The position numbers were made by a program, and so were the translations under genes. Below, piece by piece: positions 21,976-63,242 of a stretch of DNA of 64,000 nt. The first letter of the stretch is position 1, and the number at the start of each line of letters is the position of its first letter. The notes under the pieces are model-generated. The model saw only the letters and a program-made list of their open reading frames with translations. It had not been told where the DNA came from and did not search any database. Origin of the DNA: Candidatus Aenigmatarchaeota archaeon (GTDB lineage Archaea > Aenigmatarchaeota > Aenigmatarchaeia > GW2011-AR5); contig JACPRW010000003.1 of assembly GCA_016193585.1 (NCBI GenBank), positions 193,649 to 257,648 on the forward strand, read 5' to 3'.

Positions 21976-23193
21976 CTAATGGTAGTATCGTATGAACAGG
22001 TATACCGACACTGCTATGACAATGCCCGCAAGAAGAAGGAATATGACGGAGTTGTCCTGACCTGTCGCCTGCGAAGGCACGGTGGTTGTTGTCGGGCGGA
22101 TGGTCGTGGTCGTTGCCGGAGCGAGAGTAGCTGCGGCAATGGTGGTGGACTCTATCTTGGTCAGGTTCTTTTTGACGGTGTAGGACATATCTTTGCTCTC
22201 CCCTTTCTTCACCTCGTCAAAAGACCACTGCACGATGGGGTCTGCTTGTAATATAACCGGCTTGAGGCCGAGGAACACGAGGTCATTCGCACTCGCCGCG
22301 ACTGATTTCGGTATGACCTCGACAACCTTGATGTTCGTTGCATCAACCGGCGACGAGAATGACAGCGTTACTTTCGTAACGGTCGTCGATTTGCCCGTAT
22401 CCTTCGCAGTGACAAGGAACACTTCCACGCTCTTCGATACCAAGACCGGCTGGGACGAGGACGACTGCATGTTCTGCTTGATTTCCTGCAGTGCCTCCTT
22501 TGCGGTTTCGGTCACTGCAGTGGCAAGCGCTTGGTCTACCGTCTGCTCGACGCGCTCCGTGACAACAGACGTCACGACGCTTGCTTCGGCAACTTTCTCG
22601 ACCTTGACGGTCCCTGCATTGACTTCGGTGAGTCCAAGTGATTCAGGAGGGACGACCATAACGACTTCAGTGACCGTTGCTTGTTCCGTCACTTCAACAG
22701 GCGTTCCAAGATTTTGCACCGGAGGAAGGGTGGTGGTTGTCGTCGTTGCAGGAACAGTCGTCGTAGTCGTGGCAGAAACGGTGCTCGCAGAGCCGCTGCT
22801 GCCTCCCCCGCCGCCACTCGATTCGACGCACCCGTTGGTACACGCCCTGCCCGACGAGCAGCCGGAATTGTCACTGGTGCACGATTCGCCGGAATCGCAG
22901 TAACCGTCGCCGCAGGTCGGGTCAGAGGAGCGGCACACGTTATGCACGCAATAACCTGATGAGCAGGATACGTCCATGCACGTATCGTTCGTTGAAGGGC
23001 AGTTTGTCGATGCGGCAGTGCAGGCATCGCCGTTGCTGAGCAGGTAGGTGCCGCCTCCATAAGGACCTGCGTCGCCGCCGGGGCCTGCTGTTCCGTTTGC
23101 CGGACCCGTCGTTGTTTCAGCCGAGCCGACAGACGCGAAAAGTAAAGAAACAACAACTAAACAAAGGATTCCCCCACCCCTCATGCTATCCAC
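21976..23193 (-). CDS. Cell-surface protein with cysteine-rich head, Thr-rich linkers and C-terminal membrane anchor
   Basis: The 405-residue protein has a signal peptide, a cysteine-rich part (about 50-125) with C-G-D-G-x-C-D-S-G-E-S-C, a T-rich linker, a beta and helical domain of about 200 residues, a second T-rich linker, and a C-terminal membrane helix followed by a short tail. It starts either at the GTG at 23193, which shares one base with the stop of the giant gene, or at the ATG at 23184. The giant upstream protein has no anchor of its own, so this protein may hold it on the surface; that is inference. Confidence 0.75.
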   Translation of the reverse strand: MDSMRGGGILCLVVVSLLFASVGSAETTTGPANGTAGPGGDAGPYGGGTYLLSNGDACTAASTNCPSTNDTCMDVSCSSGYCVHNVCRSSDPTCGDGYCDSGESCTSDNSGCSSGRACTNGCVESSGGGGGSSGSASTVSATTTTTVPATTTTTTLPPVQNLGTPVEVTEQATVTEVVMVVPPESLGLTEVNAGTVKVEKVAEASVVTSVVTERVEQTVDQALATAVTETAKEALQEIKQNMQSSSSQPVLVSKSVEVFLVTAKDTGKSTTVTKVTLSFSSPVDATNIKVVEVIPKSVAASANDLVFLGLKPVILQADPIVQWSFDEVKKGESKDMSYTVKKNLTKIESTTIAAATLAPATTTTIRPTTTTVPSQATGQDNSVIFLLLAGIVIAVSVYLFIRYYH

Positions 23194-32684: not shown

Positions 32685-32744
32685 TCGCTTCCCCAAAACA
32701 TTACGCGGAAATTACATCGCGTCTAGTATCTATCGTTCTTCCTT

Positions 32745-36489: not shown

Positions 36490-36660
36490 GTTCATGCCTC
36501 CATGTTTTGTTTTTACAAGTTCCGTTTCATGTTTTTCGACGGAACAGTTCATTGTCCGGACAAACCGCTGCCGTGTGTGTACATTGCATGCAATGGTTTG
36601 AGCATGATATGTTCCTTAATCACATCCAGAATGCTGGATTTTTTTGGAACAGGTCATCCC

Positions 36661-44098: not shown

Positions 44099-44223
44099 TG
44101 CACCCATCGGGAATCGAACCCGAAACACAGGCTGTTTTCATACAATGGGATACCCGCACGATGAGCGAAGCGCTCGTGCGGGGTATTTGGGAAGCCCGTA
44201 TCATACCACTAGACCATGGGTGC
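44099..44223 (-). tRNA. tRNA-Gly (CCC) with a structured intron at 37/38
   Basis: On the minus strand the acceptor arm is GCACCCA with TGGGTGC and discriminator A. The anticodon arm is CGGGC-TTCCCAA-GCCTG and the T loop TTCGATT. About 52 bases separate position 37 from the 3' half of the arm, the canonical archaeal intron site. The intron is mostly one long hairpin, with CCCGCACGA pairing to TCGTGCGGG around GCGCTTCGC. Confidence 0.88.
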
Positions 44224-45486: not shown

Positions 45487-46731
45487 ATGCATTTTGCCGA
45501 CCTCCACCTCCATTCGCACTACTCGCGCGCAGTATCACAGAACATGACCATCGAGGAGCTCGCACGAAACGCGAAGATAAAGGGGCTCGACATCCTCGGC
45601 ACCGGTGACTTCACGCATCCGCTGTGGCTCACGGAGTTGAAGAAGCGGCTTTCCTTTGAGAACGGCATCTACGATTTTGACGGAATGAAGTTCATCCTGC
45701 AGGCAGAGATTGCTCTCGTGTACACGCAGGGAGGTAAAGGCAGGAGAATTCACCACATACTACTTGCTCCATCATTTGATGCCGTTGACCAGATAAACGA
45801 GTTTCTCGACAAGAAAGGCAGGCGCGACTACGACGGCCGGCCGATATTCGGCTTTTCATCCATTGAACTCGTCGAAGTGATGCAGTCTATTTCACAGGAC
45901 ATCGAGGTCATTCCTGCCCATTCATTTACACCCTGGTTTGGCATGTTCGGGTCTATGTCAGGCTTCGATTCGCTCAGCGAATGCTTTGGCGACAAGGCAA
46001 AGCACATCCATGCAACCGAGACAGGTTTGTCCAGTGACCCTTTAATGAACTGGCGCTTGTCGCAGCTGGACAACATCACGCTCATCTCAAACTCCGACTC
46101 GCATTCGCCGTACCCGCACCGCATCGGAAGGGAGGCGAATGCGTTTGATTTGAAGGAAGTGAATTATGAGAATATAATCGATGCAATAAGAAAGAAGAAG
46201 CTTGCATTCACTGTGGAAGTTTCTCCCGAATACGGAAAATATCATATTGATGGCCACCGCAACTGCAACTTCTCCTGCTCGCCGCAGGAATCAGCGAAAT
46301 TAAAGAATCTATGCCCGCGCTGCGGCACCAAAATGACCATCGGCGTGCTCCACCGGATAGAGGAACTGGCAGACCGTCCTGAGGGCTTTGTGCCGAAGGA
46401 CGCGGTGCCGTACAAGTCGCTCATACCGCTGAGCGAGCTCATTGCAGCCGCGACCGGCTCGGGCGTGGTATCGAAGAAGGTGGCGCAGTTGTACAACCTT
46501 CTTATCGACAGGTTCGGCAGCGAGTTCAGTGTTCTATTGAATGCGGAAAGAGCAGATTTGCTCACGGTGGTTGGCGGGCCGATAGCCGATGTCATCATCA
46601 GCAACCGCGAAGGAAAATTAAAAATCATCCCCGGCTACGACGGCGTCTACGGGAAGCTCGTGCTCAATGAAGTGCAGCAGCCGGAACAAACAGCCGCGAA
46701 GAAAAAATTCACGACACTCAGGGATTTCTAG
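45487..46731 (+). CDS. Endonuclease Q-like PHP-domain DNA repair nuclease
   Basis: EndoQ cuts DNA 5' of deaminated bases (uracil, hypoxanthine) and abasic sites. The 414-residue protein begins with the PHP motif D-L-H-L-H-S (5-10), continues with G-T-G-D-F-T-H, P-A-H-S-F-T-P-W and S-D-S-H-S-P, which supply metal ligands, and has the four-cysteine zinc ribbon C-x3-C...C-P-R-C at about 260-280 typical of EndoQ. A helix-hairpin-helix-like tail (V-G-G-P-I-A-D) follows. The ATG at 45487 has AAGGAG seven bases upstream. It suits an organism that must deal with frequent deamination. Confidence 0.85.
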   Translation: MHFADLHLHSHYSRAVSQNMTIEELARNAKIKGLDILGTGDFTHPLWLTELKKRLSFENGIYDFDGMKFILQAEIALVYTQGGKGRRIHHILLAPSFDAVDQINEFLDKKGRRDYDGRPIFGFSSIELVEVMQSISQDIEVIPAHSFTPWFGMFGSMSGFDSLSECFGDKAKHIHATETGLSSDPLMNWRLSQLDNITLISNSDSHSPYPHRIGREANAFDLKEVNYENIIDAIRKKKLAFTVEVSPEYGKYHIDGHRNCNFSCSPQESAKLKNLCPRCGTKMTIGVLHRIEELADRPEGFVPKDAVPYKSLIPLSELIAAATGSGVVSKKVAQLYNLLIDRFGSEFSVLLNAERADLLTVVGGPIADVIISNREGKLKIIPGYDGVYGKLVLNEVQQPEQTAAKKKFTTLRDF

Positions 46732-47798
46732 GTATTGCAGCACACAACGCAGTCGCTCACCGCTACCGTTCGTTGCGATTTCCCAACGCATGCGTTGTTG
46801 CCGTCTTTTTCGCACAGCGGGCTTGCCCAGCCGACATCACGCGCATAAGCCCCGCATGTCTGAAGATTCGCTCGTTGCGTCCCGCGCACAATGACCGTTG
46901 CCGTTTTCTTGATAAAGTACTCGTAGTCAAGATCGATTTTGAACAGGATTGAATCTGATCGCGGGCCTGCCTTCCATTGGTCGACACCCACCTTAAATGC
47001 ACACAAGACAGGCGCAGTGCCGTCAGAGCGGAGCACCATGTCGGTTGTATCGCAGATAGCTTTATCGGCACTTGGTGCACTAACCCCCGGACCGGTCACC
47101 TCGATTGTCCCCCACACCCTCCCTAATTCTCCAGCGCTGATCGGCCAGCCGTCCCCAACATTCCGCACCTCAAGCCGGTAGGAGAACGTGCGGTCATCAG
47201 TGGTGGGATCGATGAGGAGCGGCACTGCACCGCTCACGATGCTGACCTTGATGGGAGAAAAGTCGTCCTGCGTCACGATAATCGGGTTGGTGACATCCTC
47301 TCCCCTGCTCCGCAAAATCTTGTTTTCATCAGTGTTAAGCGCCCTGAGAAGCACCACCTGCGACGAATAGTAGTTGTAGGTCACCCGCGCGTCGACTGAA
47401 AATGGCGTTACCGAGCCCTCGGGAAGTGTAGATGGCCTGAGGCTAATGATGCAGAACAGGAGCCCTCCCGGTGTCCGGTCAATGGGGTTGGGAGGATTGA
47501 GGCTGTTCGCAGAACATGCAGCAGGGATTGTGCCGGTCCACGTATACTTTTTTTCAGCATCGCTTGGCGCTGCCTTTATGGTGATTCCCTCTATTTTTGT
47601 GGTAACTTTATCCGCGCGCACGCCCCCGATATTCTCCATCTCGAGCAGGAAATCAACCTGTTGGTTGTCATTGACCTCTGTCGGGTCAGCAGAAAACTTG
47701 TTGATGACGATGCCGTTGTTTCCGACACGCACGTCCTGCTGCGTGGTGCACCCGGCAACAACGGCGATAAGCACGAGAAGCAAGAGGTATTTCTTCAT
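46728..47798 (-). CDS. Surface lipoprotein 1 of the beta-sandwich family
   Basis: The ATG at 47798 precedes a lipoprotein signal ending V-V-A-G-C. The 356-residue protein has two beta-sandwich domains. The first (about 30-150) shows N-K-F-S-A-D-P-x-E-V and L-E-M-E-N-I-G-G, a CARDB-like pattern, and closes with R-V-T-Y-N-Y-Y-S. The second (about 170-310) has V-R-N-V-G-D-G-W-P. A short cysteine-rich tail (C...C-x-x-C-C) ends the protein. The layout is shared with the three lipoproteins at 48141, 50592 and 51658 and with part of the 2029-residue protein. The stop overlaps the EndoQ stop by four bases. Confidence 0.78.
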   Translation of the reverse strand: MKKYLLLLVLIAVVAGCTTQQDVRVGNNGIVINKFSADPTEVNDNQQVDFLLEMENIGGVRADKVTTKIEGITIKAAPSDAEKKYTWTGTIPAACSANSLNPPNPIDRTPGGLLFCIISLRPSTLPEGSVTPFSVDARVTYNYYSSQVVLLRALNTDENKILRSRGEDVTNPIIVTQDDFSPIKVSIVSGAVPLLIDPTTDDRTFSYRLEVRNVGDGWPISAGELGRVWGTIEVTGPGVSAPSADKAICDTTDMVLRSDGTAPVLCAFKVGVDQWKAGPRSDSILFKIDLDYEYFIKKTATVIVRGTQRANLQTCGAYARDVGWASPLCEKDGNNACVGKSQRTVAVSDCVVCCNT

Positions 47799-47913
47799 GA
47801 TATCAGAAATTATATGGTACAAGCAGTATAAATATGTTTAACGCAGCGGCTCTGTAAACTCTTCTAACGAATAACCGGAAATCTAATTCTCAACCCAACA
47901 AAATTCACGGGAA

Positions 47914-48140
47914 ATGAGCATAAAGAGGAATCTTGAGTCTGGCAAGATACGCTGCCAGCGATGCGGGCATAGTAAAGTTTGGAAGAACGGTATATATGCT
48001 TGGCTTCAAGAACGATACTACATGAAGCAGTACGTGGAAGGTTTCAGGCGTTCTGGAATGCTAAATTTTTTGGCTTTCATTAAGCAGTATAATTGGATTT
48101 ACAGAGCCAACGCAGCGGCGCAGCATGAAAGTATTTTACT
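47914..48140 (+). pseudogene. Possible transposase remnant with a zinc-ribbon start
   Basis: The frame opens with a zinc-ribbon half, C-Q-R-C-G-H-S-K-V-W-K-N-G-I-Y, like the N-terminus of several insertion-sequence transposases, but no catalytic domain follows and the frame drifts into the opposite-strand lipoprotein gene. The DNA is A+T-rich compared with both sides. It may be a decayed insertion sequence; the evidence is thin. Confidence 0.3.
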
Positions 48141-49121
48141 TTACCGGCCCGTGCCGATGACCTGCACCGCGACCTCCTCGCTGACGAAGTAGCTATAGAA
48201 GAGTTCAAACTGGAGGGAAATTCTGCCTTCCGGTTGCGTCGCCCATGCTGATTTGGTTATGTTGATGATGCACGGAATGCGGAACTTGCCATCCTCCCGC
48301 ACGCGGGGCAGGATGTCACTTGATTCAAGGCGGACAGCTTTCTTTCCGATTATATCGGTGTCTGACGTCGCGAGCGTCTTTCCAAAGCAGCGGTCGAACG
48401 TGGTGCCCGGCCCGGTTATGTTGATAAGACCTGTCAGCTTTCCTGCCGTGCCGTCGGTTATCGGGAAGCCGCTGCCGACATTCGTGAATTCTATCATGAG
48501 CGTCTGTTGCTGAATCGTCGCAGTGTCATCGGTATCGATAATGAAAGGACTTGCCTTAAACCGATCCGGCACGGTCATCTTGAGCGGGCCAGGGCTGTTC
48601 ACTTCCACAATAGTGCTGGTAATCGGCTGGTTCGCCAGTTCGCGCAGTTCGAGCTGCTTCCGCGTGAGTGCGAAAACGTCAATGTACCCAGAAGTATTGT
48701 AATTATACTTCACGCGCGCTTCGACCGGCAGCACGGGGCTTATTCCCTGCGCAATGCGCGGCGTGGTGAGCTCCCATTGTACGGTGATGAAATCTCCGGG
48801 GAGGTTCTGGTCGAGAGAAGGCGGCCGGAGGTTAAACGGCCCTTTCTTCTGGGTATCGGTGATTGGCTCTTTCTTCGGCGTCGTGTCGCGCCAGCGGTCC
48901 TGAATGCCGATGAGCTCAATTTCCACGTTCCCGGCAACAGTCCCGCCGACGTTCTCTACATCTATGTCAAACAGCACGGTGTTGCCTGAGCGCGCCTGGG
49001 GAGGAAACGCTGAGAACGCATTGATGATGATGCCGTTGTTCAGGTCGACTTTCGTCTCGCGCGGCCCGGTGCAGCCGGCGACGACAACAAGCACAACAAT
49101 GGCAAGGGCGAATTTATGCAT
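48141..49121 (-). CDS. Surface lipoprotein 2 of the beta-sandwich family
   Basis: The ATG at 49121 begins a lipoprotein signal ending V-V-A-G-C. The 326-residue product repeats the layout of lipoprotein 1: N-G-I-I-I-N-A-F-S-A-F-P-P and V-E-N-V-G-G in the first sandwich, then A-R-V-K-Y-N-Y-N-T-S and a second sandwich with F-T-N-V-G-S-G-F-P. It ends after a strand ending Y-F-V-S-E-E-V-A-V-Q-V without the cysteine tail. Tandem placement with lipoprotein 1 points to gene duplication. Confidence 0.78.
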   Translation of the reverse strand: MHKFALAIVVLVVVAGCTGPRETKVDLNNGIIINAFSAFPPQARSGNTVLFDIDVENVGGTVAGNVEIELIGIQDRWRDTTPKKEPITDTQKKGPFNLRPPSLDQNLPGDFITVQWELTTPRIAQGISPVLPVEARVKYNYNTSGYIDVFALTRKQLELRELANQPITSTIVEVNSPGPLKMTVPDRFKASPFIIDTDDTATIQQQTLMIEFTNVGSGFPITDGTAGKLTGLINITGPGTTFDRCFGKTLATSDTDIIGKKAVRLESSDILPRVREDGKFRIPCIINITKSAWATQPEGRISLQFELFYSYFVSEEVAVQVIGTGR

Positions 49122-49282
49122 CAGTGTCACTACGGATACTATTGGGGCAGGCGGTTTAAATAATTAACGGAAAAAATTCGGCTAATCTCCCGGAGTTTTT
49201 GTAATTGACGCGTACTATTATTAGCTACTGAGCAGTGACGAAACATTTAAATACTTTTCGGAAAAGATAACTAGCGATTGGT

Positions 49283-50566
49283 ATGGCTGTAGCTGGTCCT
49301 CCGATAAGTCCCAGAAGGGTTCTAGCATATGGAGCGATTGGTGCTGCTGCAGCCATCATAGGAGGTTCATGCCTCATAAACCCGTTCGAAATGTACGGTC
49401 CGAGAGGCCCTCCTGGAACACCGTCCCCTACAGCAGTTGCAGGCGCGCCATCTCCGGCAGGAACACCAAGAGCAGGAACGCCGGCAGCAGCAGTTACGGG
49501 ATCGCCGACAGCTTCGCCGACAGCTTCGCCGACAGCTTCGCCGACAGCTTCGCCGACAGCTTCGCCGACAGCTTCGCCGACAGCAACGCCGGCATATACA
49601 CCAACACCCATCGTGAACGGCTATATGTGCGGCAAGGTGAACAGCGCCTATTGGGAGGACAGCAAGCCTGGCGCACGCCCTGACGAACCAAGAACGCCCG
49701 AGAGGCTGGTGATTGATGGCCAGATGGGACAATGCAATACTGCTGCTAGACATTATGTAGTAACAAATTTTTCTGGTGCTGATAGGGCTGCCGCCAGACA
49801 CACCGCTAATGTTATTGGGAATGGCGACGAGGTTCGATTTGAGCGTCGGGGTGGAGACGGTGTATACGGGACACTAACACTTGAACGTCGGGCGGACCGG
49901 TTCCCTTACGACAGGGAACTCACCATCAAGGGGATTAATGAAGACATTCTCCGTAATATGGTCACCTATGACGGCGCCGATGCCAGCCTGTTGCTGACGA
50001 CAACGGACAGAGTAACCGGAGAGACATACAAAGTTCGTATCAAAGTGACTCCGGAACAGGCAAACGCCATTCTTCGGAATACCATGAGGACCGGCAGGGA
50101 GCCGCGGTCGACAACAGGCGCGGCGATTATCGTTCCGTTACCGGGTCGTTCCACACCCGGTTATATGGGTCGTGTGCCGGCAAACGGGAGAGGGACCGGG
50201 GACCTCAGAACTCGTTCGCCTGAAGGCGATATATACGATTTCGCCGGACCGGTGTATTTTGTGGTCAGTAGTGATACAAAAGTAGACATCAGGCCTAATG
50301 GCTCGGGCACGCTGACGTCACGTGAGTTTATCCTGCCTGACGGCAGGCAAATCCCGTACAACCAGGTTCCAGACTTTTTGAGGCAGGAGCTCTTCGGCGA
50401 GTTCAGGGACACGCCAACAAGCGTGCCTACGTCAACGCCGACAAGGACACCGTCAGCGACACCGACAGCAGTGCTTCCAGCTACGCCAACCCCTACACGA
50501 GGTCCGAGGAAATCCCCGAAAACAACGCGCCCTCAGGTGCTCGACCGGCGGCCTCGCAGGCACTAG
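49283..50566 (+). CDS. Membrane-anchored protein with T-A-S-P repeat linker, unknown
   Basis: The 427-residue protein has a hydrophobic N-terminal helix (about 13-30) ending near a cysteine, a long linker rich in P, T, S and A (about 40-110) including a perfect T-A-S-P repeat, a soluble domain (about 115-375) with no recognised family, and a second P/T-rich basic tail. The linker is of the type that is heavily glycosylated on surface proteins. It is the only plus-strand gene between the lipoproteins. Confidence 0.65.
   Translation: MAVAGPPISPRRVLAYGAIGAAAAIIGGSCLINPFEMYGPRGPPGTPSPTAVAGAPSPAGTPRAGTPAAAVTGSPTASPTASPTASPTASPTASPTASPTATPAYTPTPIVNGYMCGKVNSAYWEDSKPGARPDEPRTPERLVIDGQMGQCNTAARHYVVTNFSGADRAAARHTANVIGNGDEVRFERRGGDGVYGTLTLERRADRFPYDRELTIKGINEDILRNMVTYDGADASLLLTTTDRVTGETYKVRIKVTPEQANAILRNTMRTGREPRSTTGAAIIVPLPGRSTPGYMGRVPANGRGTGDLRTRSPEGDIYDFAGPVYFVVSSDTKVDIRPNGSGTLTSREFILPDGRQIPYNQVPDFLRQELFGEFRDTPTSVPTSTPTRTPSATPTAVLPATPTPTRGPRKSPKTTRPQVLDRRPRRH
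49505..49588 (+). repeat. 12-bp tandem repeat inside a coding linker
   Basis: Six exact copies of CCGACAGCTTCG and one variant encode T-A-S-P units. Being a multiple of three, copy-number change would alter linker length and not the frame. Confidence 0.9.
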
Positions 50567-50591
50567 ACAACCTGTTGGCGATGGGCTTAGC

Positions 50592-51605
50592 CTATCGCCT
50601 GTTCATCCTTCTGCAGTCATCGTCGCTTTGCTCAGAGGCATCGCCATAGCAGCATAAACCAAGCGATGCCCTGCAGGTTTGCTGGGAAAATATGGTGTCT
50701 CCGTTGCAGTTAGCGCTGCGGCTCGTATCGCAGTTGCTGTTATCCGTAGCAGTGCATGTTCTCGCTGTCGCGAACAGGTCGCACGGCGCGCCGCCACCTC
50801 CCGGTCCTGCACCACCAGCAGCGCCGCCCACAATCGTCACGGGAATGCTCTTCCGCACACGGTACGTGTAATCAACGTTGACGATGACCGTGTGCGCGCT
50901 CGACGTCGTAACGCTCGGCATCATGACCCTGCACGTGAGCCGCGGGAAGGTCTTGACGATGGGCGTCAGCTCCCTGGTGTCGCACTGGACAAGGCCGCCT
51001 TCGACGCGGATGCTGCCTGCCGGCAGCCGCTCGACGAAGCCGTTGCCGATGTTCCGCACGGTGATGAACATGAACTCGTCCCTGCCGCTTGCAACGAGCG
51101 GCAGGTCGGCAGAGAACTCGATGTCAAGCTGCAGGTTCTTGTCGCTCGCCATGGAGCTCCGGGACAGCGAGGCGAGCGTTCCGGTCTTCTTCCGCAGCTC
51201 GAACTCGTTCTGCGAAATGACCTCGACGCTCCGCACCGTGCTGAGCCTCGATGAGAATTGCGTTTCAAGGCGTACCGTGTTTTCCACACGGCTTTCACTG
51301 ACAGCTTTTGCCTTGAGGTCGCACACCGTGCTGACGACCGCATTCTTGTCGATTGAGCTGAAGGTTGTTGAAGAGCACCGCTGCAACGTCATATGAGGGC
51401 CGGGGTCGAAAACGGTAACGTCGAGATTCGTGTACTCCTTGGCGTCCTTGTTCGTGATGTCGACGAAGAGTTTTGCCTCGCCGTCGCTGAAGATGAACGC
51501 CGGGTCGACCTCTGCCTTTATTGCAAGCCCCTCGGAAACGAACAACGGCGTTGTCGAGCAGCCGGCAACGAGGGCAAATAATGCAACGAAATACCAATGC
51601 TTCAT
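50592..51605 (-). CDS. Surface lipoprotein 3 of the beta-sandwich family, with cysteine-rich tail
   Basis: From the ATG at 51605 the 337-residue product has a lipobox V-A-G-C, two beta sandwiches (first with D-I-T-N-K-D-A-K-E-Y, second with T-V-R-N-I-G-N-G-F) and a tail of about 70 residues: a G-rich linker and then eight or so cysteines. The strand before the second sandwich (S-V-E-V-I-S-Q-N-E-F-E-L-R-K-K) is followed by the same kind of helix as in lipoproteins 1 and 4. The cysteine tail is probably a separate disulfide-bonded knob. Confidence 0.75.
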   Translation of the reverse strand: MKHWYFVALFALVAGCSTTPLFVSEGLAIKAEVDPAFIFSDGEAKLFVDITNKDAKEYTNLDVTVFDPGPHMTLQRCSSTTFSSIDKNAVVSTVCDLKAKAVSESRVENTVRLETQFSSRLSTVRSVEVISQNEFELRKKTGTLASLSRSSMASDKNLQLDIEFSADLPLVASGRDEFMFITVRNIGNGFVERLPAGSIRVEGGLVQCDTRELTPIVKTFPRLTCRVMMPSVTTSSAHTVIVNVDYTYRVRKSIPVTIVGGAAGGAGPGGGGAPCDLFATARTCTATDNSNCDTSRSANCNGDTIFSQQTCRASLGLCCYGDASEQSDDDCRRMNRR

Positions 51606-51657
51606 GCGCATACCTATGCGCTATATGTGCCTGGTACCGTATAAATATAATCAGGAG

Positions 51658-52899
51658 CTACGGCGCCGCAAGCGGCATGATGTCGATGTCCTTCGAGCCG
51701 CGGAGCTCGTACTGGTAGCTGACCGATGCAGTCATCGCATAGGTTTTGTACGGCGTTCCTGCCGGCAGGTCCGCGTCGGTTGTCGTGAACAGCAGCGGCG
51801 GCGACTCGCCCTTGAACAGCGGTATTGGCTCGGTATTCTCGCATTCAGTGCCGCCAGCCTGTCCGGTGCAGGCGAATAGCTGCGCGGCAGTGCCGCCTCC
51901 TCCTCCACCTCCGCCGCAATTCCTTGTCCCGCCGCACGTTACGGAGTTTGAGCACGCAATCCTGTTGACTTTGGAACCGGTGACTTCGCAGAGCATTTCG
52001 AGCTCGTCGTGTGCCTGGCAATGCAGACCTGCGCTTTGGCAAGGCACGGCGTGATTACTGTTGTAGCATTCACCCCATGTGTCGCCGGTGTTGTGGCTGC
52101 CGCAGTGCGACGAAAAGCTAACGACGTTCCCGTACGCCGTTTCATAGGATTCCTTCGACGGGCCTGCCGCGATGGACGGAGGGGTGATGGTCGGCAGGAC
52201 AGCAGGGAAGAATACCTTGAGTTTATGCGGCTTTATCTCGCTGCCGACGATGGTTCCCCTGGTCCGGTCACCCTTGTTGAACACCTTGACCATGACCATC
52301 GTCGGGTAGCCGTTGACCGCATATTTCGTGCCGAGGAGCTCGATGTGCACCTGTATCGGCCCGCTGCCGTACGGGTCGATGCCGTACGGGACCGTGACGG
52401 TCTGTCCCTCGCGCTGCAGACGCTTTATTTCCTCCAGATCGACGACCGCGAAATTGAACAATGTCGAGCCGCTGAAGTTGTAGAGCACGCGGAAATTGAC
52501 GTTCGTCTGCGTCTTGAGGCCGGCAATCTTGTCCTTGCTCGGTGATGTCATGTCGAACCTGATGAGCCGCTGTTCCTGCGGGAGGATGAAGCTGATGGTC
52601 TGGCTCGGCGTGGGAACGGTAAAGCTGCCGGTGTCGAATATCTCTGCCTGAATGTTGGTCGCTGATTTCCGGTCGTCCTTGTTCTCGATGACGAAATTAA
52701 GGGCAACAGCGACATTCCTGCCGGTCTCGCTCGGCAGCACCGGCGATTTCGGCAGCGTGTCGATGTCCTTGATGACGAGCACATCCTTGAACCCTTCCTC
52801 CTTCTTCTTCTCGTCGACTTTTATCACGCCGCCGCTGATGTCAGGAATCGAGCAGCCTGCGATAAATATAACGGCCAGAAGCAGTACTCCTATGCGCAT
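51658..52899 (-). CDS. Surface lipoprotein 4 of the beta-sandwich family, with a cysteine-rich insert
   Basis: From the ATG at 52899 the product has 413 residues with a lipobox I-A-G-C. The first sandwich contains N-F-V-I-E-N-K-D-D-R-K and ends N-F-R-V-L-Y-N-F-S-G-S; a D-L-E-E-I-K-R-L-Q-R-E-G helix leads to the second sandwich with V-K-V-F-N-K-G-D. This D-x-x-E-I-x-R-x-Q-x-E-G helix is matched in the 2029-residue protein. Inside the second sandwich lies an insert with about nine cysteines and a run of eight glycines. It is 50 bases upstream of lipoprotein 3. Confidence 0.77.
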   Translation of the reverse strand: MRIGVLLLAVIFIAGCSIPDISGGVIKVDEKKKEEGFKDVLVIKDIDTLPKSPVLPSETGRNVAVALNFVIENKDDRKSATNIQAEIFDTGSFTVPTPSQTISFILPQEQRLIRFDMTSPSKDKIAGLKTQTNVNFRVLYNFSGSTLFNFAVVDLEEIKRLQREGQTVTVPYGIDPYGSGPIQVHIELLGTKYAVNGYPTMVMVKVFNKGDRTRGTIVGSEIKPHKLKVFFPAVLPTITPPSIAAGPSKESYETAYGNVVSFSSHCGSHNTGDTWGECYNSNHAVPCQSAGLHCQAHDELEMLCEVTGSKVNRIACSNSVTCGGTRNCGGGGGGGGTAAQLFACTGQAGGTECENTEPIPLFKGESPPLLFTTTDADLPAGTPYKTYAMTASVSYQYELRGSKDIDIMPLAAP

Positions 52900-52942
52900 G
52901 AACTCCACATACCTTTATTACCTTCCTCCATATTAAAACGTA

Positions 52943-54225: not shown

Positions 54226-54557
54226 CGGACCAGCGTCCTCAGGCGTTCATTCCTTTTTGAGCTGAGCCTTCTGTTGAGCGCTCTGTTTTCTTTTACAGAC
54301 TTCTCCAGCTTATTCCCTTCCTTTCCGCTCAGTAAGCCTGCAAATTCCATTATATGGTGAATTGCACTGGGTATGTCCTGATATTATTTGCAATTCACCT
54401 ATAGAAAATTGCGCGTTAATACGACATAAGCTGCGCAATTATCTATATCCCTTTTTCCTGTTATTCTGTTTATCACATCGCTGAAACTCTCTCCTCCCTT
54501 TTTCTTGGCAGCAAGCCGCTCGTAGGACTCCTCGGTTATTGAAATTGAGCTCAGCAC
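54222..54557 (-). pseudogene. vapB: vapB antitoxin gene split by a D element
   Basis: A GTG at 54557, overlapping the stop of the 2029-residue gene, starts S-S-I-S-I-T-E-E-S-Y-E-R-L...S-F-S-D-V-I-N-R-I-T-G-K-R-D-I, the DNA-binding half. The element at 54356-54443 follows, with a stop in frame. The toxin-binding half resumes M-E-F-A-G-L-L-S-G-K-E and ends at the vapC start. Deleting the element with one TATAT restores R-D-I-M-E-F-A-G-L in frame. The insertion is 93 bp including the duplication, a multiple of three. A truncated N-terminal product and a restarted C-terminal product are both conceivable. Confidence 0.85.
54356..54443. mobile_element. Simple family D element (88 bp) inserted in vapB
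   Basis: TATAT at 54351-54355 and 54444-54448 flanks the element. It has two hairpins: GTGAATTGCA...TGCAATTCAC and AAATTGCGC...GCGCAATT. This is the only D copy without a nested insertion, so it shows the basic unit. At the site where other copies hold AB it reads CTGGGTATGTCC. Confidence 0.88.
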
Positions 54558-57500
54558 GTCGCCGCCGTCCGCGCCGGCGTGCCGCAGCCGCACACGAAGC
54601 ACGGGTCGACGTGCTTGCAGTCCTGGCGGTAGTCGGCAGTTGTGCCGCCCTTGTACAGCGTGAAGTGCAGATGGTTGGGTGTCGTCGTCGACGGGCAGCC
54701 GCTGCAGCCGACCGTGCCGATTTTCTGGCCTTTCGTAACCGGTGCGCCTGTCGCTATGCCGCTTTCTATCGTATCAAGGTGCGAGTAGTACGAATACCAG
54801 CCGGCCGCATACGGGTCGGTAGCAGAAACCGTTCCTGTATGCTGTATGACGGTGGCATTGCCGCCGGGGCCTGACGTTGCTACAGAGCTAATCGTGCCGT
54901 CATGTGCTGCCCGGACGTCCGTGCCGCGGGCCGCCAGAATATCGATGGAGCCGTGTATCCAGCTTCCTGCGCAGGTATTTCCTGCGGCAGTGTACGTGCC
55001 GTCGCACACGCCTTCCGGACCGCGCGGCGACGTATAGTCAGAGACAGGGCAGTTCACGCCCTGCACCGGGTTGGCGACGCCGCTGCTCGTCGTCACCGCA
55101 GCCTTGATGCACTGCTTCCACTGGTTGTAGTAGTTCATGACCGGAACGGTATAAACGGTATTAATAGTACAACCGCCGCCCTGATAATATTGCGTCAGTG
55201 CCTGTTCAATATTTCCGCCGCAGCTGGCGAGGTTGCCTGAGATGTGCACGGCGCCGCCTCTGAGGTTTTTCGCAGGGTCGAACCGCTCGTCATTCGGCTT
55301 GTCGCAGTTGGCAATTGACAGACCTGCTCCCGGATTCCTGCTGCAGACAGGAACGACATTGCTCGTGCCAGGGCAGCTGCCTGCAACTGTTTGCGTGGCG
55401 TACGACGGCACCTTAAGGCCTCGTGCAATTGCGGAAGCAGGCATGAGCTGCATCATTCCGGCAGCGCCGCACGTGCTCAGCGCATCCGCATTCCAGCCGC
55501 TCTCCTGTGATATGATGGCAGCGATGAGCGCCTGAGGATTCTCGCTGCGCGTCGCGAGTGCCTGCAGTGCCTGGGCATTGGCATCGGCAACCGCAGCATC
55601 TATCTGACCGGCATTCGCATTATACGTGCTTTCCCATGCCTGCACAGAGCCTGTGCATCCTGTCGCCACCGTGCTCGCGCCCCCGCCAGGCGGCACCACT
55701 CCACCGCCGCTCCCGGGGATGCCGAGCGGCGTCGTCACGATAAAGTTCTTCGTGTACTTGACCGTGAACTCGTACTTCGGCAGCTCCGCCCTGATGAAAT
55801 CGGTGCCGGCGATGGTGACCTGCGCGGCGTCGAAGGTGCACAGGAAGGCAAAGACGACGTTGAAGCCTGATTCGATGTCGATGTCCTTCTTGACCTTGAA
55901 CTTGTGCTTTATCGTGTCCGGTTGCTGGTCGAATCCCTCGTAGCTGACGAACGAGTCGTCGCACCGGAATGACCCCGTGCCGCCAGGAGAGGACGGCGGC
56001 ACGGCGATCGACGTCGGCATGTAAATGAAAAGATTATCGCCTTGCTTGAGCCGCACCGCGCCGTCGTCGCGCTTGTTGTTCACGGCGAAGAGGAGGAAGT
56101 TCCGCTGCCTGCCTGCGTAGAGCGGCTGCGGCCCGACGTTGATGGAAATTTCACCAGGCGTCGGGCTGCCGGTGGCGACCACCGGCCTGAAGACGTCTTC
56201 GCCTTCCTGCTGCCGCCGTATGATTTCGTCCTGGTGCATGATGGTGGTCTTGAGCGTCGAGCTCGTGGCGTACGCGTAGGTGACGTTGAATACGATTCGT
56301 GCGTTGCTTGCCTCTGCTTCATGGGCCTGTTGCGGCGCCCATGCCATGATGTTCTTGAACTGCAGCGCCTGCGCTTCGCCTGGCTTGAGTAATGTTCGCA
56401 GCGTCGTCGCATCCGGCGGCTCGAAGTTCGGGTTCTTGCAGCTGTCGTCCTGTGAGTCAGGCGGGCAGCAATACCCCCGGGGACTTCGGTCGCAGTAGAG
56501 ATTAACCTTGACATCGGTTGCCGTGTACTTGCCGTCGTTCTTGACGACGACTGCAGCGGCGAAGTAGGACGGCACGACGCCGCTTGCATCGCGCTTCGAC
56601 GCGGCTACGGTCCGCGGGAATAATTCGAAGTTCTTGATTTCGATGCCCTTGGGAAAGTCCAGCGCCGTTTCGGGTTTGACGTTCTTCGCCGCCTGTATCT
56701 TGGCGTACTCGGTCGGGTTCGTCGTGATGAGCCACACCTCCTGAATCGTCTTGCCGACCGCGTTGACGACGACGATGAGCGGCCGCTTCACCTGGTCGAT
56801 TGCCTGGGTAAAGTGGGCACTGTACGGCCCGAGCGCCACGTAGCCGAAGATGAGCATGACCGCGCCCATCTGGAATATGAAAGTGAACTTGCCCGACGGG
56901 TAGAACTGCATCGCGCCGAGGAAGAAGCAGAGCGCGCCCCAGATGAGGAAGGTGAGGAAGCCCCGTCCCGTGCTCTCGAACATCCATTCCGGCGTCATGA
57001 TTGACGCGAGGAATATGTACGTGCCGTAGGCGGTGATGGCGCCCGCGATGATGTGCGTGAGCGCGTCCAGCGGATACTTCGTGTCCTCGAAGTTGAGCAC
57101 GAGGAAAATGCCGCCCATGATGACGGGCGCAAGCCACAGGTAGAAGAACGGCCCGAACTGGCCGCCGAGCGCGGAACCAAAGACTTTCGAGTTGATGTAA
57201 AACGAAATCATCATCCACTGGAGCACGACCATGCCCGACCCGATGACCCACGGCCCGGCAACGACGCCCCATAAATTCTGGAGGAAGTCCATCCACACCT
57301 CGCGGAAGGTCTGGCCTCCCCGGCCGATGATGCGGAGCGCGCGAAGGAACGATTGCATGGCAGTGTTGCCGCGGGTGATGAGCTCTTCGGCGTAGTCTTT
57401 GGCGTAGTCGTCAAGCTCAGCTGCCAGTTGTTCCTGTATGTCTGAATGAAGCGGAAACTTGTACTGCCGTGCTATCCGCACGGTGACTACGCGCGCTTTT

Positions 57501-60500
57501 TCTTTCAGGTAGTCCCGCAGCGTTGCCGATGCTGTCTCAAGGTCGCGCTCGAACTCCTGCTCGTACTTGTCCCGTTCGTCGAAATACCGTTTCATGGTGT
57601 CCCGTACCTGGTTGAGCGTATCCATTTGTACCGGCGACAGACCGCCGCCTTCCGCTCCTTCAAGCACCCGTTCAGCCATCCCGAGCAGCTTCATCGGCCC
57701 TGCGGCGAGCATGCCGCTACCGAAGAGGCCACCACCCCGGCCTGTTGCTTGTCTTACTAATTGTCGCATCGTCCGCTGGGCTGTCCGGTACTGCTGCTCA
57801 AATTGGCGCAAATTATTCGCGCGCGTCTGGTACCGCACGGTCAGTCCCCGCGTCGGATGGAGGAACAGCCGCTCGTACTCAGCCTCGCCGTAGTCGTGGA
57901 GCATCCGGCGGCCGGTGTTGATGGCTGCAGACAATTGCGGCGATTCTGGCGCTCCTTTCCGGGTTACGTTCCCTCCATGTGTCATATCCCATCGCTCAGA
58001 CCACCGCGTCCCGGCGAGCGCGAGCGGCGTGCCCGCAACGCGGCCGAGCCTGCTGCCGCTCATCTCGGTGCCGGCGATGTAGCCGCCCCTGCCGCTCAGC
58101 AGCGTCGAAGAAGGACGTGTGCTGTGCTCGGCTGTGCCGCCTTTATAGAACGCGGTCATCGCGAATTTCGCGACGCGGTGCTGGACATTATTGATGGTTC
58201 GCGTTTCGATTGGAAGCAAAAATTCCTCGGTAGATGGCCAGTGCGGCGGCTCGGGCAGTTCTCGAGGCCGGATAAGCCGCGCAGCGATGTGCTGCACCCC
58301 GCCGACGATTCGAGGGAAAAACTCTATCCTGACGTCCCCGGAACCTTCAGGGGAAATGAAATCTTCAGGTTTCATTCCTCCATGCGGCGTTTCCCAGTGG
58401 GTGAACGCCAAAACCATGTTCTTTTGTTCATCCGACAGTCCCTGAAACGCTTCTCTACTGATTTCTCGGACACGTCCTCCACTTTCTAAGATAAGAGGGG
58501 GGATCGAGACGGTCATGGGGCCAAGATTCAGCAAACCGAGTGTGAAGTCCGTTTCGCCGACAGGTTCTCCCACTTTTATTTTTTCCACTTCCCCCAGAAG
58601 GGCTTCGAGCAGGCGAATCTGGTCGAGAATAAGAACCTTGGCAGCACCGGCTGTTTCGGCGTCCATCTCCCGCTTGAGGTCTGCCATGTGCTGTACCGTA
58701 TCCTGCTGCCACTTTTCCACAACTGGTATCGTTGTCAGAGGATTCGGTATCCACGGAGGATTTGGTGGTATAGGCAAGCCCGTCGACCACAGGAAAGCAA
58801 CGCCATTGATAATCTTTGGGACAAGGATTCCTGGTGCCGTTATGCGTACCGGAACCCCTCTCGCCGGCATCGAGCGGATGGTGATTTCTAGGCGTATTGG
58901 CTGGCCGGGAGGCGGCGGTGGAGGTGGTGGTGGAGGTGGTGGTGGAGGTGGCAACAATAACAGAGGCGGGCCAGGTGGCAATGCCGGTATTGCCGGCCCC
59001 GGCGGCAGTGCCGGTACATGAGGTCCCGGAGGCAGCGCGGGTGGTGGAGCAGGACCAGGGGGCAACGCAGGATGCGCTGGTCCGGGCGGCAGGGCAGGCG
59101 GACCTGGAGGTCCCGGAGGCAACGCAGGATGCACTGGAGGCGCAGGTAGTGCTAGGTGTGGTGGTCCCGGAGGCAACGCAGGATGCACTGGAGGCGCAGG
59201 TAGTGCTAGGTGTGGTGGTCCCGGAGGCAATGCCGGGTGTTGAGGAGGCGCAGGCAACAGAGGGCGTTGCGGCGGAGCTGGTAGTGCTAGACGCCCCTGA
59301 GCCGGCAGAAGTTCGTAATGCGCTCGAAAGAGCATCGAGCCTGCTATATCGGTTTCGATAACATTATTCTCCACGCGCTTGCTTCCGCGTCCGCGAGTGA
59401 AAAACCACCATCTGAAGGTGAAAACGCGGTTTGCAACGTCCCTGAACTCGAGCGGAGCTTCAAGGCGATACAACCCTGAATATAATTTTACGTATGCAGG
59501 GGTTGCAAAGGCTTCGGAAAAGGTGAACTGCCTGTTCTTGTATTTTTTCTGCGCGTCGGGAAGATTATATCTGCCGCTCGGTCCCTTGGTTCCGTATTCA
59601 ACTCCCTGTACCGTGACATTGGCATTCAGTTGTATCTTTCCCGCCTGCGCGACGATAGTGATGTCATTGCCTATAGTACGGCCGGCAGGTTTTTTTTGAG
59701 GAAGTTGTAGTGGAGGAGTGGCTGATTGCGGTAGAGTCGGTGAACGTGGTGTCGAACCAGCAGAGGGTAGTGGAATTGGCGTTGACGGCGATCTGTTCGG
59801 TAGTTCGGCAAAAGACGCTGGCTGAGGTGCCGGAAGCATGAGACGCTGGGGCGCGGCGGGGAGTGCACGTCGTTGCGCTACTTGGGCAGCCGGTGCATGT
59901 GTCGGCGGAGGCGGCGTCATGTCATAGTGCGCCCGAAAGAGCATTGAACCTGAAATATCGGTTTCGACAACATTACCCTCCACGCGCTTGCTTCCGCGCC
60001 CACGCGTAAAGAACCACCATTTGAACGTAAAGACACGACCTGACGCATCCTGTATTTCGAGCGGCGCCTCAAGTCTGTAGAGGCCCGAGAACAGCTTGAT
60101 GTAAGCTGGCGTCGTAAAAGCGGCAGAGAACGTGAACTGCCTGTTCTTGTATTTTTTCTGCGCGTCAGGACGGTTGTCTCGTCCTGTGGGTCCGCGTGTG
60201 CCGTATTCGACGCCTTCTATCTTGATGTCTATGTTCAGCTGTATTTTTTCAGCTTGTGCTTCGATAGTGATGTCATTGCCGATGGCACGGCTGCCTGACT
60301 GAGGAGCTGTGACTGCCGAAGAAACACCAGCCCGCGATACTGCTGAAGCAGGCTGTGCAGCAGGCGGCAGTGCACTATCCTGTTTCCTTACAGTGCCTGT
60401 TGTCCTGCCGGCACGTTTCGCTTCTTTTTCAAGGACATCACGCGCTTCATTGATTTCCGTGGCGATTTCAGCGTATTTTTTGTCTCCTCCATGAAGGTCG

Positions 60501-60640
60501 GGATGGTAATTCTTCGAAAGCACAACATATGCGCGCCTGACGTCATCGCCGGTATACGCCGCAGGAAGCGGTTGCTGACCATTGCGCGTCAGATACATGT
60601 GGAAAATGATTTCGGCTTCTTCCGGCGTCATTTGTGCCAT
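54551..60640 (-). CDS. 2029-residue fusion: J domain, unknown repeats, 6 membrane helices, ectodomain, lytic transglycosylase and M23 peptidase
   Basis: Order of parts: a J domain at 1-75 with H-P-D at 46-48; two copies of an unknown beta domain (about 116-245 and 322-450, each with G-N-D-I-T-I and W-W-F-F-T-R-G-R-G-S-K-R); a proline-rich hinge with P-A-L-P-P-G-P repeats and a run of about 15 prolines near 563-579; a helical part (about 600-1110); about six membrane helices (1115-1285); an ectodomain like that of lipoproteins 1-4 (1310-1640); an SLT-type lytic transglycosylase with Glu1713 in S-Q-E-S-G-W and G-M-M-Q-L-M-P; and an M23 peptidase with His1896, Asp1900 and H-L-H (1990-1992). The enzymes should face outwards and cut peptidoglycan glycan strands and peptides. 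The J domain should remain inside and could recruit Hsp70. Confidence 0.85.
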   Translation of the reverse strand: MAQMTPEEAEIIFHMYLTRNGQQPLPAAYTGDDVRRAYVVLSKNYHPDLHGGDKKYAEIATEINEARDVLEKEAKRAGRTTGTVRKQDSALPPAAQPASAVSRAGVSSAVTAPQSGSRAIGNDITIEAQAEKIQLNIDIKIEGVEYGTRGPTGRDNRPDAQKKYKNRQFTFSAAFTTPAYIKLFSGLYRLEAPLEIQDASGRVFTFKWWFFTRGRGSKRVEGNVVETDISGSMLFRAHYDMTPPPPTHAPAAQVAQRRALPAAPQRLMLPAPQPASFAELPNRSPSTPIPLPSAGSTPRSPTLPQSATPPLQLPQKKPAGRTIGNDITIVAQAGKIQLNANVTVQGVEYGTKGPSGRYNLPDAQKKYKNRQFTFSEAFATPAYVKLYSGLYRLEAPLEFRDVANRVFTFRWWFFTRGRGSKRVENNVIETDIAGSMLFRAHYELLPAQGRLALPAPPQRPLLPAPPQHPALPPGPPHLALPAPPVHPALPPGPPHLALPAPPVHPALPPGPPGPPALPPGPAHPALPPGPAPPPALPPGPHVPALPPGPAIPALPPGPPLLLLPPPPPPPPPPPPPPPGQPIRLEITIRSMPARGVPVRITAPGILVPKIINGVAFLWSTGLPIPPNPPWIPNPLTTIPVVEKWQQDTVQHMADLKREMDAETAGAAKVLILDQIRLLEALLGEVEKIKVGEPVGETDFTLGLLNLGPMTVSIPPLILESGGRVREISREAFQGLSDEQKNMVLAFTHWETPHGGMKPEDFISPEGSGDVRIEFFPRIVGGVQHIAARLIRPRELPEPPHWPSTEEFLLPIETRTINNVQHRVAKFAMTAFYKGGTAEHSTRPSSTLLSGRGGYIAGTEMSGSRLGRVAGTPLALAGTRWSERWDMTHGGNVTRKGAPESPQLSAAINTGRRMLHDYGEAEYERLFLHPTRGLTVRYQTRANNLRQFEQQYRTAQRTMRQLVRQATGRGGGLFGSGMLAAGPMKLLGMAERVLEGAEGGGLSPVQMDTLNQVRDTMKRYFDERDKYEQEFERDLETASATLRDYLKEKARVVTVRIARQYKFPLHSDIQEQLAAELDDYAKDYAEELITRGNTAMQSFLRALRIIGRGGQTFREVWMDFLQNLWGVVAGPWVIGSGMVVLQWMMISFYINSKVFGSALGGQFGPFFYLWLAPVIMGGIFLVLNFEDTKYPLDALTHIIAGAITAYGTYIFLASIMTPEWMFESTGRGFLTFLIWGALCFFLGAMQFYPSGKFTFIFQMGAVMLIFGYVALGPYSAHFTQAIDQVKRPLIVVVNAVGKTIQEVWLITTNPTEYAKIQAAKNVKPETALDFPKGIEIKNFELFPRTVAASKRDASGVVPSYFAAAVVVKNDGKYTATDVKVNLYCDRSPRGYCCPPDSQDDSCKNPNFEPPDATTLRTLLKPGEAQALQFKNIMAWAPQQAHEAEASNARIVFNVTYAYATSSTLKTTIMHQDEIIRRQQEGEDVFRPVVATGSPTPGEISINVGPQPLYAGRQRNFLLFAVNNKRDDGAVRLKQGDNLFIYMPTSIAVPPSSPGGTGSFRCDDSFVSYEGFDQQPDTIKHKFKVKKDIDIESGFNVVFAFLCTFDAAQVTIAGTDFIRAELPKYEFTVKYTKNFIVTTPLGIPGSGGGVVPPGGGASTVATGCTGSVQAWESTYNANAGQIDAAVADANAQALQALATRSENPQALIAAIISQESGWNADALSTCGAAGMMQLMPASAIARGLKVPSYATQTVAGSCPGTSNVVPVCSRNPGAGLSIANCDKPNDERFDPAKNLRGGAVHISGNLASCGGNIEQALTQYYQGGGCTINTVYTVPVMNYYNQWKQCIKAAVTTSSGVANPVQGVNCPVSDYTSPRGPEGVCDGTYTAAGNTCAGSWIHGSIDILAARGTDVRAAHDGTISSVATSGPGGNATVIQHTGTVSATDPYAAGWYSYYSHLDTIESGIATGAPVTKGQKIGTVGCSGCPSTTTPNHLHFTLYKGGTTADYRQDCKHVDPCFVCGCGTPARTAATC

Positions 60641-60950: not shown

Positions 60951-63242
60951 TTACTGAACGTCGTACTTCTTCAGTAGCCGCTGGTACGTTTCGTCGAGCA
61001 GGAAGTTGAATTCTTCCTGAGTTTCAGGCTGGCTGCCCCACTCCTGCAGAACGTCGACGTACGTAGTGTCGAGGTCTCTAAGGAGTTCCGTGTGTTGTGG
61101 TGTCAGGTTTACTGCAAATCTGATCGTGTTAAATCGCACTGCGGATTGCAGCGGTCCTCGTTGGGTATCACGATAGAATCCAGGGTATGTGGCCATTGTC
61201 GGGAGCCATACAAAACCTGGGTATGCACCTTCCAGTTGGTTTTCGAGTTGCTTTTCATACACTGCCCTGAGCGTGCCAGTCAATTCCCTTCGCGCGTTCC
61301 CGAGGTTACGCCGCTGCTTTTGCCTGCCGCTGAGGCGTTGGTCTCGTGCCCTGTCTGCCAGTGCAGCACGTTGGCTGTCTGTGTACGCAGGTCGCTGACC
61401 GATGGCGCCGAGTGCTTTCACTTCTTCCTGCACCGTATCAGGCGCATACCGTCCCTCCTTGAGCGGTTTCGGTCCCGCAACCGGAGCAGAAGGTTCCGCG
61501 GCTGTTGCAGCGCCCTGCATTTCTGCAGCTCTTTGTGCCTCGGTTTTAGTAGTAGTCTGCGGGTACTTCCCGCGCCGCATCCGGTCAGCCATCACCGCCG
61601 ATGCATATGCGCGGGCGGTGTCCCAAGAAACACCTTCATGTACAACCGCACTGTCCATAATTCTTAAAAAATCAGATTGCATGCGCCCTTGGACATCTTC
61701 TGGTGCCTTCGCATAACCTTGATCGATGAACTCTTGGACATCAGGAGTGAGCGATGCCGCCCTTCTCACCGTTCTTCGCTCACGGGCATCCCTTCTTCTC
61801 GACGCTCTATGGGCAGTTGCAGGATGCTCTTCGGGCAGGGACAGCCAGTCAGGCAATTCTGAAGGCGTGTATGGCGCTGCCTGTTCTGTTGGGGCTGCAG
61901 GACTGTTTTCTCTAGGCTGCTCAGCAGCTTCCACAATGCGGTACTTCCCGCGCCGCATCCGATTGGCTATTACAGCCCGCGCATACAGCATCGGGTTTAT
62001 CCCGGAAACCCCGTCGTATGCAACTGCTGTGTCTCTGATTCTTTCAAAATCCGATTCTATTTGCTTTTGGACATCGGATGGTACACTGTCGTAAAACCTG
62101 TCAATGAGACCCTGGTCATCAGCCCAGTTGAATGATGCCGCCCTTCTCTCAACTCTTTGCCGGCGGGCATCATTTCGTTTCATGCTGTTCAACGAAAGCT
62201 GCCCCTGCGGCACGGGCTCCTGCGGTGCTGGTTCCTCTGCAGCCACAGGCTCTCGATACACCATGCCCTCGAACTCCTCGAGCGGCAGCGGCGGCTGCTG
62301 GACAGGTTCTGCAGTAGGTTCTCCCTGTTTGTATTTTCCTCTCTTGATGTTTCGTGCCGTCATACGATAGGCGTAATAGAACGGGTCCTTGGCGCCCATG
62401 ATGCCTGGTACACATTCGTACAAGTCATGTCCACGTCGCAGGAATCCGTCAAAATCATCCTGAATGCGCTGTGCTGCTTCTGTACCTTGGAGCGATGAAG
62501 TTGTTTCCCAGACAAGATTCTTGTCATCGTGGCTGTACCGTTTCGCTCGCTTGAATACGGCGTTTCCGCGGGCGATATCCCGAGGCGAGTACGTCGGTCC
62601 AGCCGGTGCCGGTTCTGCTGGTACTTCTGCCGCTGCGCTTCGCGCTGTTTCGTAGCCCTGTGCAACCATGCGCTCGATGACTTCACGGGATCTCTGGAAT
62701 TCGTCTACTCTCTCCAGTGCGCGGGTTTGCACGCCACCAGCTCGTGCAGCATTCCATTCGTCCTCCGTCTTTCCTAATGCAAGACGGTACGCGGTTTCGA
62801 CGTCAGCGCCCTTGGCGACGAAGTCGTTGTACCGCTCGATGACGTCCTGTTGTGAAATTCCAGCTAATGTCTGGTAACGAGTGTTAAGGTCTGCCCTTGT
62901 TTCCGCCGTTTCCTGCACGTTTGCGATGTGCGGCGTGATGTCACGTTCCTCGGCGAGAAGCGGATTATCATTGTTCGAAGCATAGGTCCCGTTCGCAGAA
63001 CGATACACAGGAAGGTGCTGCTCTTCCCGTTGTTCCTTGAAGTCTCCGGTGACTTTAAGTGATCCCCCGATTTGTGCTACGTACGCGGCGACGTCCTCTG
63101 CCCTGTCGCCAGGCTTGTAGCCTACAATAGCAAGTCCTTCAATTCGCTGGCCGTTCGTCAGGTAGACAGCGGCGTTAGGAATGCGATCAATGCCTACCAT
63201 TGCCCGTTCTCTCAGCGGTCGTACGCGTTCTGCAGTTACCAT
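60951..63242 (-). CDS. Large soluble protein with three repeats ending R-R-G-K-Y, unknown
   Basis: The 763-residue hydrophilic protein has no signal or membrane segment. Three related helical modules are joined by P/E/A-rich linkers. Each has a D-F-x-x-I/F...Y/W...A...A-x-x-x-x-R-G-K-Y core (about residues 265-310, 400-445 and 535-580). An N-terminal domain of about 130 residues and a C-terminal helical domain of about 170 residues flank them. It precedes the 2029-residue gene on the same strand and is probably its cytoplasmic partner; it could act as a scaffold for the J-domain side. No family is recognised. Confidence 0.65.
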   Translation of the reverse strand: MVTAERVRPLRERAMVGIDRIPNAAVYLTNGQRIEGLAIVGYKPGDRAEDVAAYVAQIGGSLKVTGDFKEQREEQHLPVYRSANGTYASNNDNPLLAEERDITPHIANVQETAETRADLNTRYQTLAGISQQDVIERYNDFVAKGADVETAYRLALGKTEDEWNAARAGGVQTRALERVDEFQRSREVIERMVAQGYETARSAAAEVPAEPAPAGPTYSPRDIARGNAVFKRAKRYSHDDKNLVWETTSSLQGTEAAQRIQDDFDGFLRRGHDLYECVPGIMGAKDPFYYAYRMTARNIKRGKYKQGEPTAEPVQQPPLPLEEFEGMVYREPVAAEEPAPQEPVPQGQLSLNSMKRNDARRQRVERRAASFNWADDQGLIDRFYDSVPSDVQKQIESDFERIRDTAVAYDGVSGINPMLYARAVIANRMRRGKYRIVEAAEQPRENSPAAPTEQAAPYTPSELPDWLSLPEEHPATAHRASRRRDARERRTVRRAASLTPDVQEFIDQGYAKAPEDVQGRMQSDFLRIMDSAVVHEGVSWDTARAYASAVMADRMRRGKYPQTTTKTEAQRAAEMQGAATAAEPSAPVAGPKPLKEGRYAPDTVQEEVKALGAIGQRPAYTDSQRAALADRARDQRLSGRQKQRRNLGNARRELTGTLRAVYEKQLENQLEGAYPGFVWLPTMATYPGFYRDTQRGPLQSAVRFNTIRFAVNLTPQHTELLRDLDTTYVDVLQEWGSQPETQEEFNFLLDETYQRLLKKYDVQ

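Follow-up and report, generated by a model that had tools for sequence, protein, structure and literature searches.

Attack on bacterial walls has been proposed for other DPANN archaea (PMC8204110, PMC9723730), and very large proteins with a transglycosylase domain, for which such an action was suggested, have already been described in Woesearchaeota and Pacearchaeota (fam00969; PMC8204110). The fam00969 module was reported to be mostly absent from other lineages (PMC8204110). Secreted modular archaeal peptidoglycan (PG) hydrolases use M23 or glucosaminidase domains against bacterial murein, and enzymes such as Woldo of Halogranum salarium were demonstrated to be bactericidal; these enzymes carry a PG-binding domain, which the survey demanded, and Aenigmatarchaeota were not mentioned there (PMC12352652). 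The SPEARE proteins of Nanohaloarchaeota, also DPANN archaea, are giant and anchored in the membrane, with a proposed role in breaching the surface of a partner, and the cultivated DPANN archaea of known partner live on other archaea (PMC6642349). Outside the archaea, YomI/CwlP of phage SP-beta is a long virion-associated lysin (PMC9662197) with a C-terminal transglycosylase/muramidase followed by M23, and in bacterial polymorphic toxin systems, catalytic cassettes at the C terminus of a conserved trunk can be exchanged (PMC3482391). The VirB1/VirB6 type IV secretion systems (T4SS) of monoderm bacteria and Patescibacteria bring together wall hydrolases and a polytopic membrane protein, also in episymbionts, and VirB1 of Gram-positives and Patescibacteria joins SLT to CHAP or M23 (PMC12102498).

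The window analysed here (the whole 64,000-nt stretch of DNA) lies in contig C3 of a DPANN genome, Candidatus Aenigmatarchaeota (G000), with a size of 1.17 Mb in 10 contigs and a completeness of 90.75%. It contains a single open frame for a 2029-aa protein with homologues in the archaeal order (Table 1). With moderate confidence, we interpret it as the local representative of an Aenigmatarchaeota protein that is tethered to the membrane and breaches murein on contact. A sequence-only reading of the window had described one protein joining a J domain to SLT and M23 hydrolases; all the motifs it named were found in place, and the DnaJ, SLT, and Peptidase_M23 profile matches exceed the Pfam curated cut-offs, so the three domains are not chance matches. 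In the SLT domain (PF01464), the catalytic E1713 within ESGW and the following G-M-M-Q-L-M motif (G-x-x-Q) are kept. The M23 domain (PF01551) has a complete set of H1896, D1900, H1954, and H1990-L-H1992, with the metal site in register with solved M23 enzymes. With the catalytic residues intact on alignment, both domains are predicted to be active on murein.

Table 1. Features of the 2029-aa protein and of the adjacent lipoprotein genes (positions in the window).
Feature	Position	Strand	Basis
2029-aa protein	54551..60640	(-)	single open frame; homologues in archaeal order
J domain, aa 29-77, HPD 46-48	60410..60556	(-)	Pfam DnaJ (E 6.5e-8); matches solved DnaJ chains
124-aa repeat, copy 1, aa 120-243	59912..60283	(-)	77% identity to copy 2
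124-aa repeat, copy 2, aa 323-446	59303..59674	(-)	77% identity to copy 1
Pro-rich linker, about aa 455-597	58850..59278	(-)	read from translation
Conserved trunk, aa 890-1645 (coiled coil, five membrane segments, two Ig-like domains)	55706..57973	(-)	alignment, profile search, model
Five membrane segments, aa 1131-1272	56825..57250	(-)	family-averaged hydropathy
Two Ig-like beta sandwiches, about aa 1333-1636	55733..56644	(-)	model; kinship with neighbouring lipoproteins
SLT lytic transglycosylase domain, two pieces (second at 55157-55300), catalytic Glu aa 1713	55157..55564	(-)	motif; Pfam (aa 1693-1744, E 1.8e-15); alignment
M23 peptidase domain, aa 1896-2002	54635..54955	(-)	Pfam (E 6.8e-17); alignment to solved enzymes
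Lipoprotein 1	51658..52908	(-)	lipobox; profile E 7e-4 to trunk Ig-like region
Lipoprotein 2	50592..51611	(-)	lipobox; single-linkage grouping with family; direct profile match not significant (E 0.2)
Lipoprotein 3	48141..49130	(-)	lipobox; profile E 1.6e-4
Lipoprotein 4	46728..47822	(-)	lipobox, Pfam LPAM_1; profile E 1.4e-4

No Mur ligase was found in G000 (90.75% complete) by a search that was positive in the controls (Methanocaldococcus, Haloferax, and 10 bacteria). Neither murein nor Mur-ligase-based pseudomurein is therefore expected in the cell, as the sequence-only reading had supposed for its archaeal host, and the substrate of SLT and M23 must be foreign. The nearest homologues belong to MAGs named Candidatus Aenigmatarchaeota and to GW2011_AR5. 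A bacterial origin of the contig was rejected because of these relatives in named archaeal MAGs, a tRNA extending over 125 bases, and the lack of Mur ligase hits. The tRNA (44099-44223, minus strand) was found as an Rfam match and missed by ARAGORN run with bacterial settings; its span suggests an intron. An S-layer protein (PF05124, TIGR01564) is encoded at 33763-36552 on the minus strand, and the cell thus probably has an S-layer.

The membrane block had been read as about six helices at residues 1115-1285. Its presence was confirmed, but family-averaged hydropathy resolved five segments (about 1131-1149, 1165-1185, 1197-1215, 1227-1246, and 1253-1272), and because this number is odd, the N- and C-terminal parts lie across the membrane from each other. 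There is no cysteine in the 1115 residues preceding the segments and 24 past the last one, and the split is repeated in 14 relatives (0-2 before the membrane, 4-54 after). The region following the membrane was modelled as two beta sandwiches, which by profile are kin of the adjacent lipobox-bearing proteins, and the translation shows no N-terminal signal peptide. The topology argument does without the positive-inside counts, which were ambiguous. Together, these indicators put the N-terminal half in the cytoplasm and the hydrolases outside in the predicted topology, in agreement with the outward orientation claimed earlier. The two 124-aa repeats in the N-terminal half (59303-60283, minus strand) look by eye like InlB-like repeats, which are usually extracellular, yet the topology locates them inside.

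The J domain is genuine, with HPD located between helices II and III, and it is the sole one in G000. The sequence-only reading had taken it as a sign of energy-dependent assembly or remodelling, with HSP70 recruited to power the outward-facing machine. That the cytoplasmic end carries a recognisable J domain, HPD included, is in keeping with such a role; however, no HSP70 was found in G000 (90.75% complete), just 3 of the 19 family members gave HSP70 hits, and the N-terminal parts of the relatives contain no HPD. Energy-driven remodelling is thus not supported, and we regard it as extremely improbable.

The trunk was detected in 33 of 59 genomes by a single-sequence search. A profile search recovered it in the majority of the family's genomes; the order's other families also have it, complete or in part. 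In the rest of the class, matches to the profile are mostly short and fall largely in the Ig-like region. A fold search with the trunk gave no match beyond generic beta sandwiches, and the TM-scores were low. Nearly all records with a trunk match are named Aenigmatarchaeota or belong to unnamed archaea, a taxonomic spread which suggests that the trunk differs from fam00969. A viral origin of the trunk was rejected, with no trunk relative in viral contigs.

In the relatives, the conserved trunk carries SLT/lysozyme-like, M23, glucosaminidase, Amidase_2, and VanY tail domains. SLT tails were found in G002, G007, G008, G014, and G018, whereas G003, G009, and G013 have lysozyme-like domains with weak scores that share the ES...G..Q motif with SLT; the motif is retained by the SLT-like domains of the relatives. 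The tail of G006 combines a match to this motif, without a Pfam hit, with an esterase. The other combinations are glucosaminidase with M23 (G010), M23 with SLT (G021), SLT with Amidase_2 (G020), and glucosaminidase with VanY (G004, in which the trunk frame is broken). Enzymes have been swapped within genera g8 and g4, with the trunk and a Cys-rich end domain retained: G007 and G013, from one genus, have trunk branches of 0.02-0.04 substitutions per site and different enzymes but share the end domain, and G003 and G010, also from one genus, have the trunk and the end domain in common and differ in the enzymes between them. The enzymes are thus replaced more rapidly than the trunk that carries them. 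The search for the same domain order in related archaea, proposed with the sequence-only reading, recovered the trunk with hydrolase tails but not the J domain; the conserved element is the membrane and Ig-like trunk, to which the J domain is a local addition.

The sequence-only reading knew of no archaeal machine with this order. Large DPANN murein-transglycosylase proteins had already been described, and what is new here is the Aenigmatarchaeota trunk, the exchange of its heads, and a conserved surface locus. No known PG-binding domain was detected in the 2029-aa protein by the Pfam scan; unlike the secreted Woldo-type enzymes, it is tethered to a polytopic trunk, and proteins of this class would tend to escape a survey demanding a PG-binding domain (PMC12352652). 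The protein shares 28% identity with YomI/CwlP over both catalytic domains. The latter is a phage tail protein without a comparable membrane trunk, but since the order of the tail resembles it, the 2029-aa protein may work like a virion-associated lysin opening a local hole. SPEARE proteins differ in having serine protease, adhesion, and nuclease domains directed against an archaeal host and no murein enzymes.

Wall hydrolases on a polytopic trunk could also belong to a conjugation or DNA/protein transfer machine, a role the sequence-only reading had considered; the hydrolases would then stand for VirB1 and the trunk for VirB6. The SLT fusions of VirB1 noted above and the polytopic trunk are in keeping with it. 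The VirB4/TraG-like ATPases it had named as a check were not found, however: P-loop_TraG had no match in G000, and AAA_10 had none above the cut-off in 31 genomes of the order. The scanned trunks had no Pfam match to TrbL/VirB6, and a fold search with the membrane block gave nothing significant. We therefore consider a transfer machine very unlikely.

The absence of own murein, the outward topology, the intact catalytic residues, and the turnover of tails make a tethered murein-cutting device against bacteria the best reading. The Cys-free N-terminal half and the coiled coil would lie in the cytoplasm, five helices would span the membrane, and two Ig-like domains would carry the disulfide-rich catalytic tail on the outside. 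This tail would cut bacterial murein, the glycan strand by SLT and the peptide part by M23, and the relatives would present other murein-active domains on the same trunk. Because the archaeon makes no murein, the enzymes would act on the wall of a touching bacterium; the dependence on contact is taken from the membrane anchor. Such short-range action could produce a local opening for feeding, attachment, or killing. From these features, we infer the enzyme activity, the bacterial target, and the contact mode, with parasitism, predation, or competition as the outcome.

Counting against a murein-cutting device, the Pfam scan gave no known PG-binding domain, the genome is only 90.75% complete, and no catalytic tail was found on the trunks of genus g6 (G005, G011, and G016) and of G019 (family f2), and the basic role of the trunk may differ from murein cutting. 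These trunks, together with the archaeal partners of cultivated DPANN (PMC6642349), would be expected if the trunk served mainly for structure or adhesion at the surface of the archaeon, with tails that act on a glycan or glycoprotein, other than murein, of a partner that is itself an archaeon. However, at least five unrelated tail families share murein as a common substrate, and we judge this alternative quite unlikely.

The gene for the 2029-aa protein is followed downstream on the same strand by four lipoprotein genes (46728-52908), and the set recurs in the relatives. A strict lipobox pattern is present in 25 of 31 such lipoproteins, with near-variants in most of the others. Their kinship with the trunk has clear profile support in several relatives and is weak for the copies in the window. 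Upstream of the trunk, the relatives share a conserved series that consists of a membrane protein resembling mechanosensitive channels, a coiled-coil protein, and a protein with a single TM segment. G000 has the first and the third of these upstream past the window edge, with several genes between them and the trunk. It is conceivable, though we offer this tentatively, that a multi-gene surface apparatus (the channel-like protein, the coiled coil, a single-pass Ig protein, the trunk, and about four lipoproteins) with swappable murein-cutting heads opens bacterial walls at contact sites and that these archaea are parasites or predators of bacteria.

The same enzymes would suffice for scavenging, in which tethered hydrolases digest murein fragments of dead bacteria as nutrients and living cells are not attacked, and DPANN genomes are small and nutrient-dependent (PMC8204110). 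A polytopic trunk within a conserved surface locus and the fast exchange of heads better fit interaction with living cells, and free secretion would be a simpler solution, making scavenging unlikely. The design of the murein-cutting trunk recalls the bacterial polymorphic toxin systems; in contrast to these, neither immunity genes nor orphan cassettes were noticed among the trunk neighbours, and a murein-free producer would need no immunity gene.

If the interpretation is true, the occurrence across an order of archaea of a conserved, tethered trunk whose murein-cutting heads can be swapped would speak strongly, on genomic grounds, for some DPANN archaea living on or against bacteria, unlike the cultivated ones of known partner. 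The trunk family would also provide assayable proteins and a marker to find partners.

Several other genes were recorded. Directly upstream of the 2029-aa protein, a 763-aa protein (60951-63242, minus strand) matches no family and, by eye, contains about three internal repeats. A 933-aa protein (5072-7873, minus strand) has a Cys content of 6% and a carboxypeptidase-regulatory-like domain, and its metalloprotease matches are weak. Just past the window, adjacent small genes (L021:7741-8786, minus strand) resemble by eye a nucleotidyltransferase/HEPN toxin-antitoxin pair. On another contig, a second, small M23 protein is encoded by a 166-aa frame (G000:C5:19902-20240, plus strand), and similar small ones are present in the relatives. 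A 3167-aa protein (23193-32696, minus strand) with many bacterial Ig-like (Big_7, Big_13) and fn3-like domains is a candidate giant surface adhesin.
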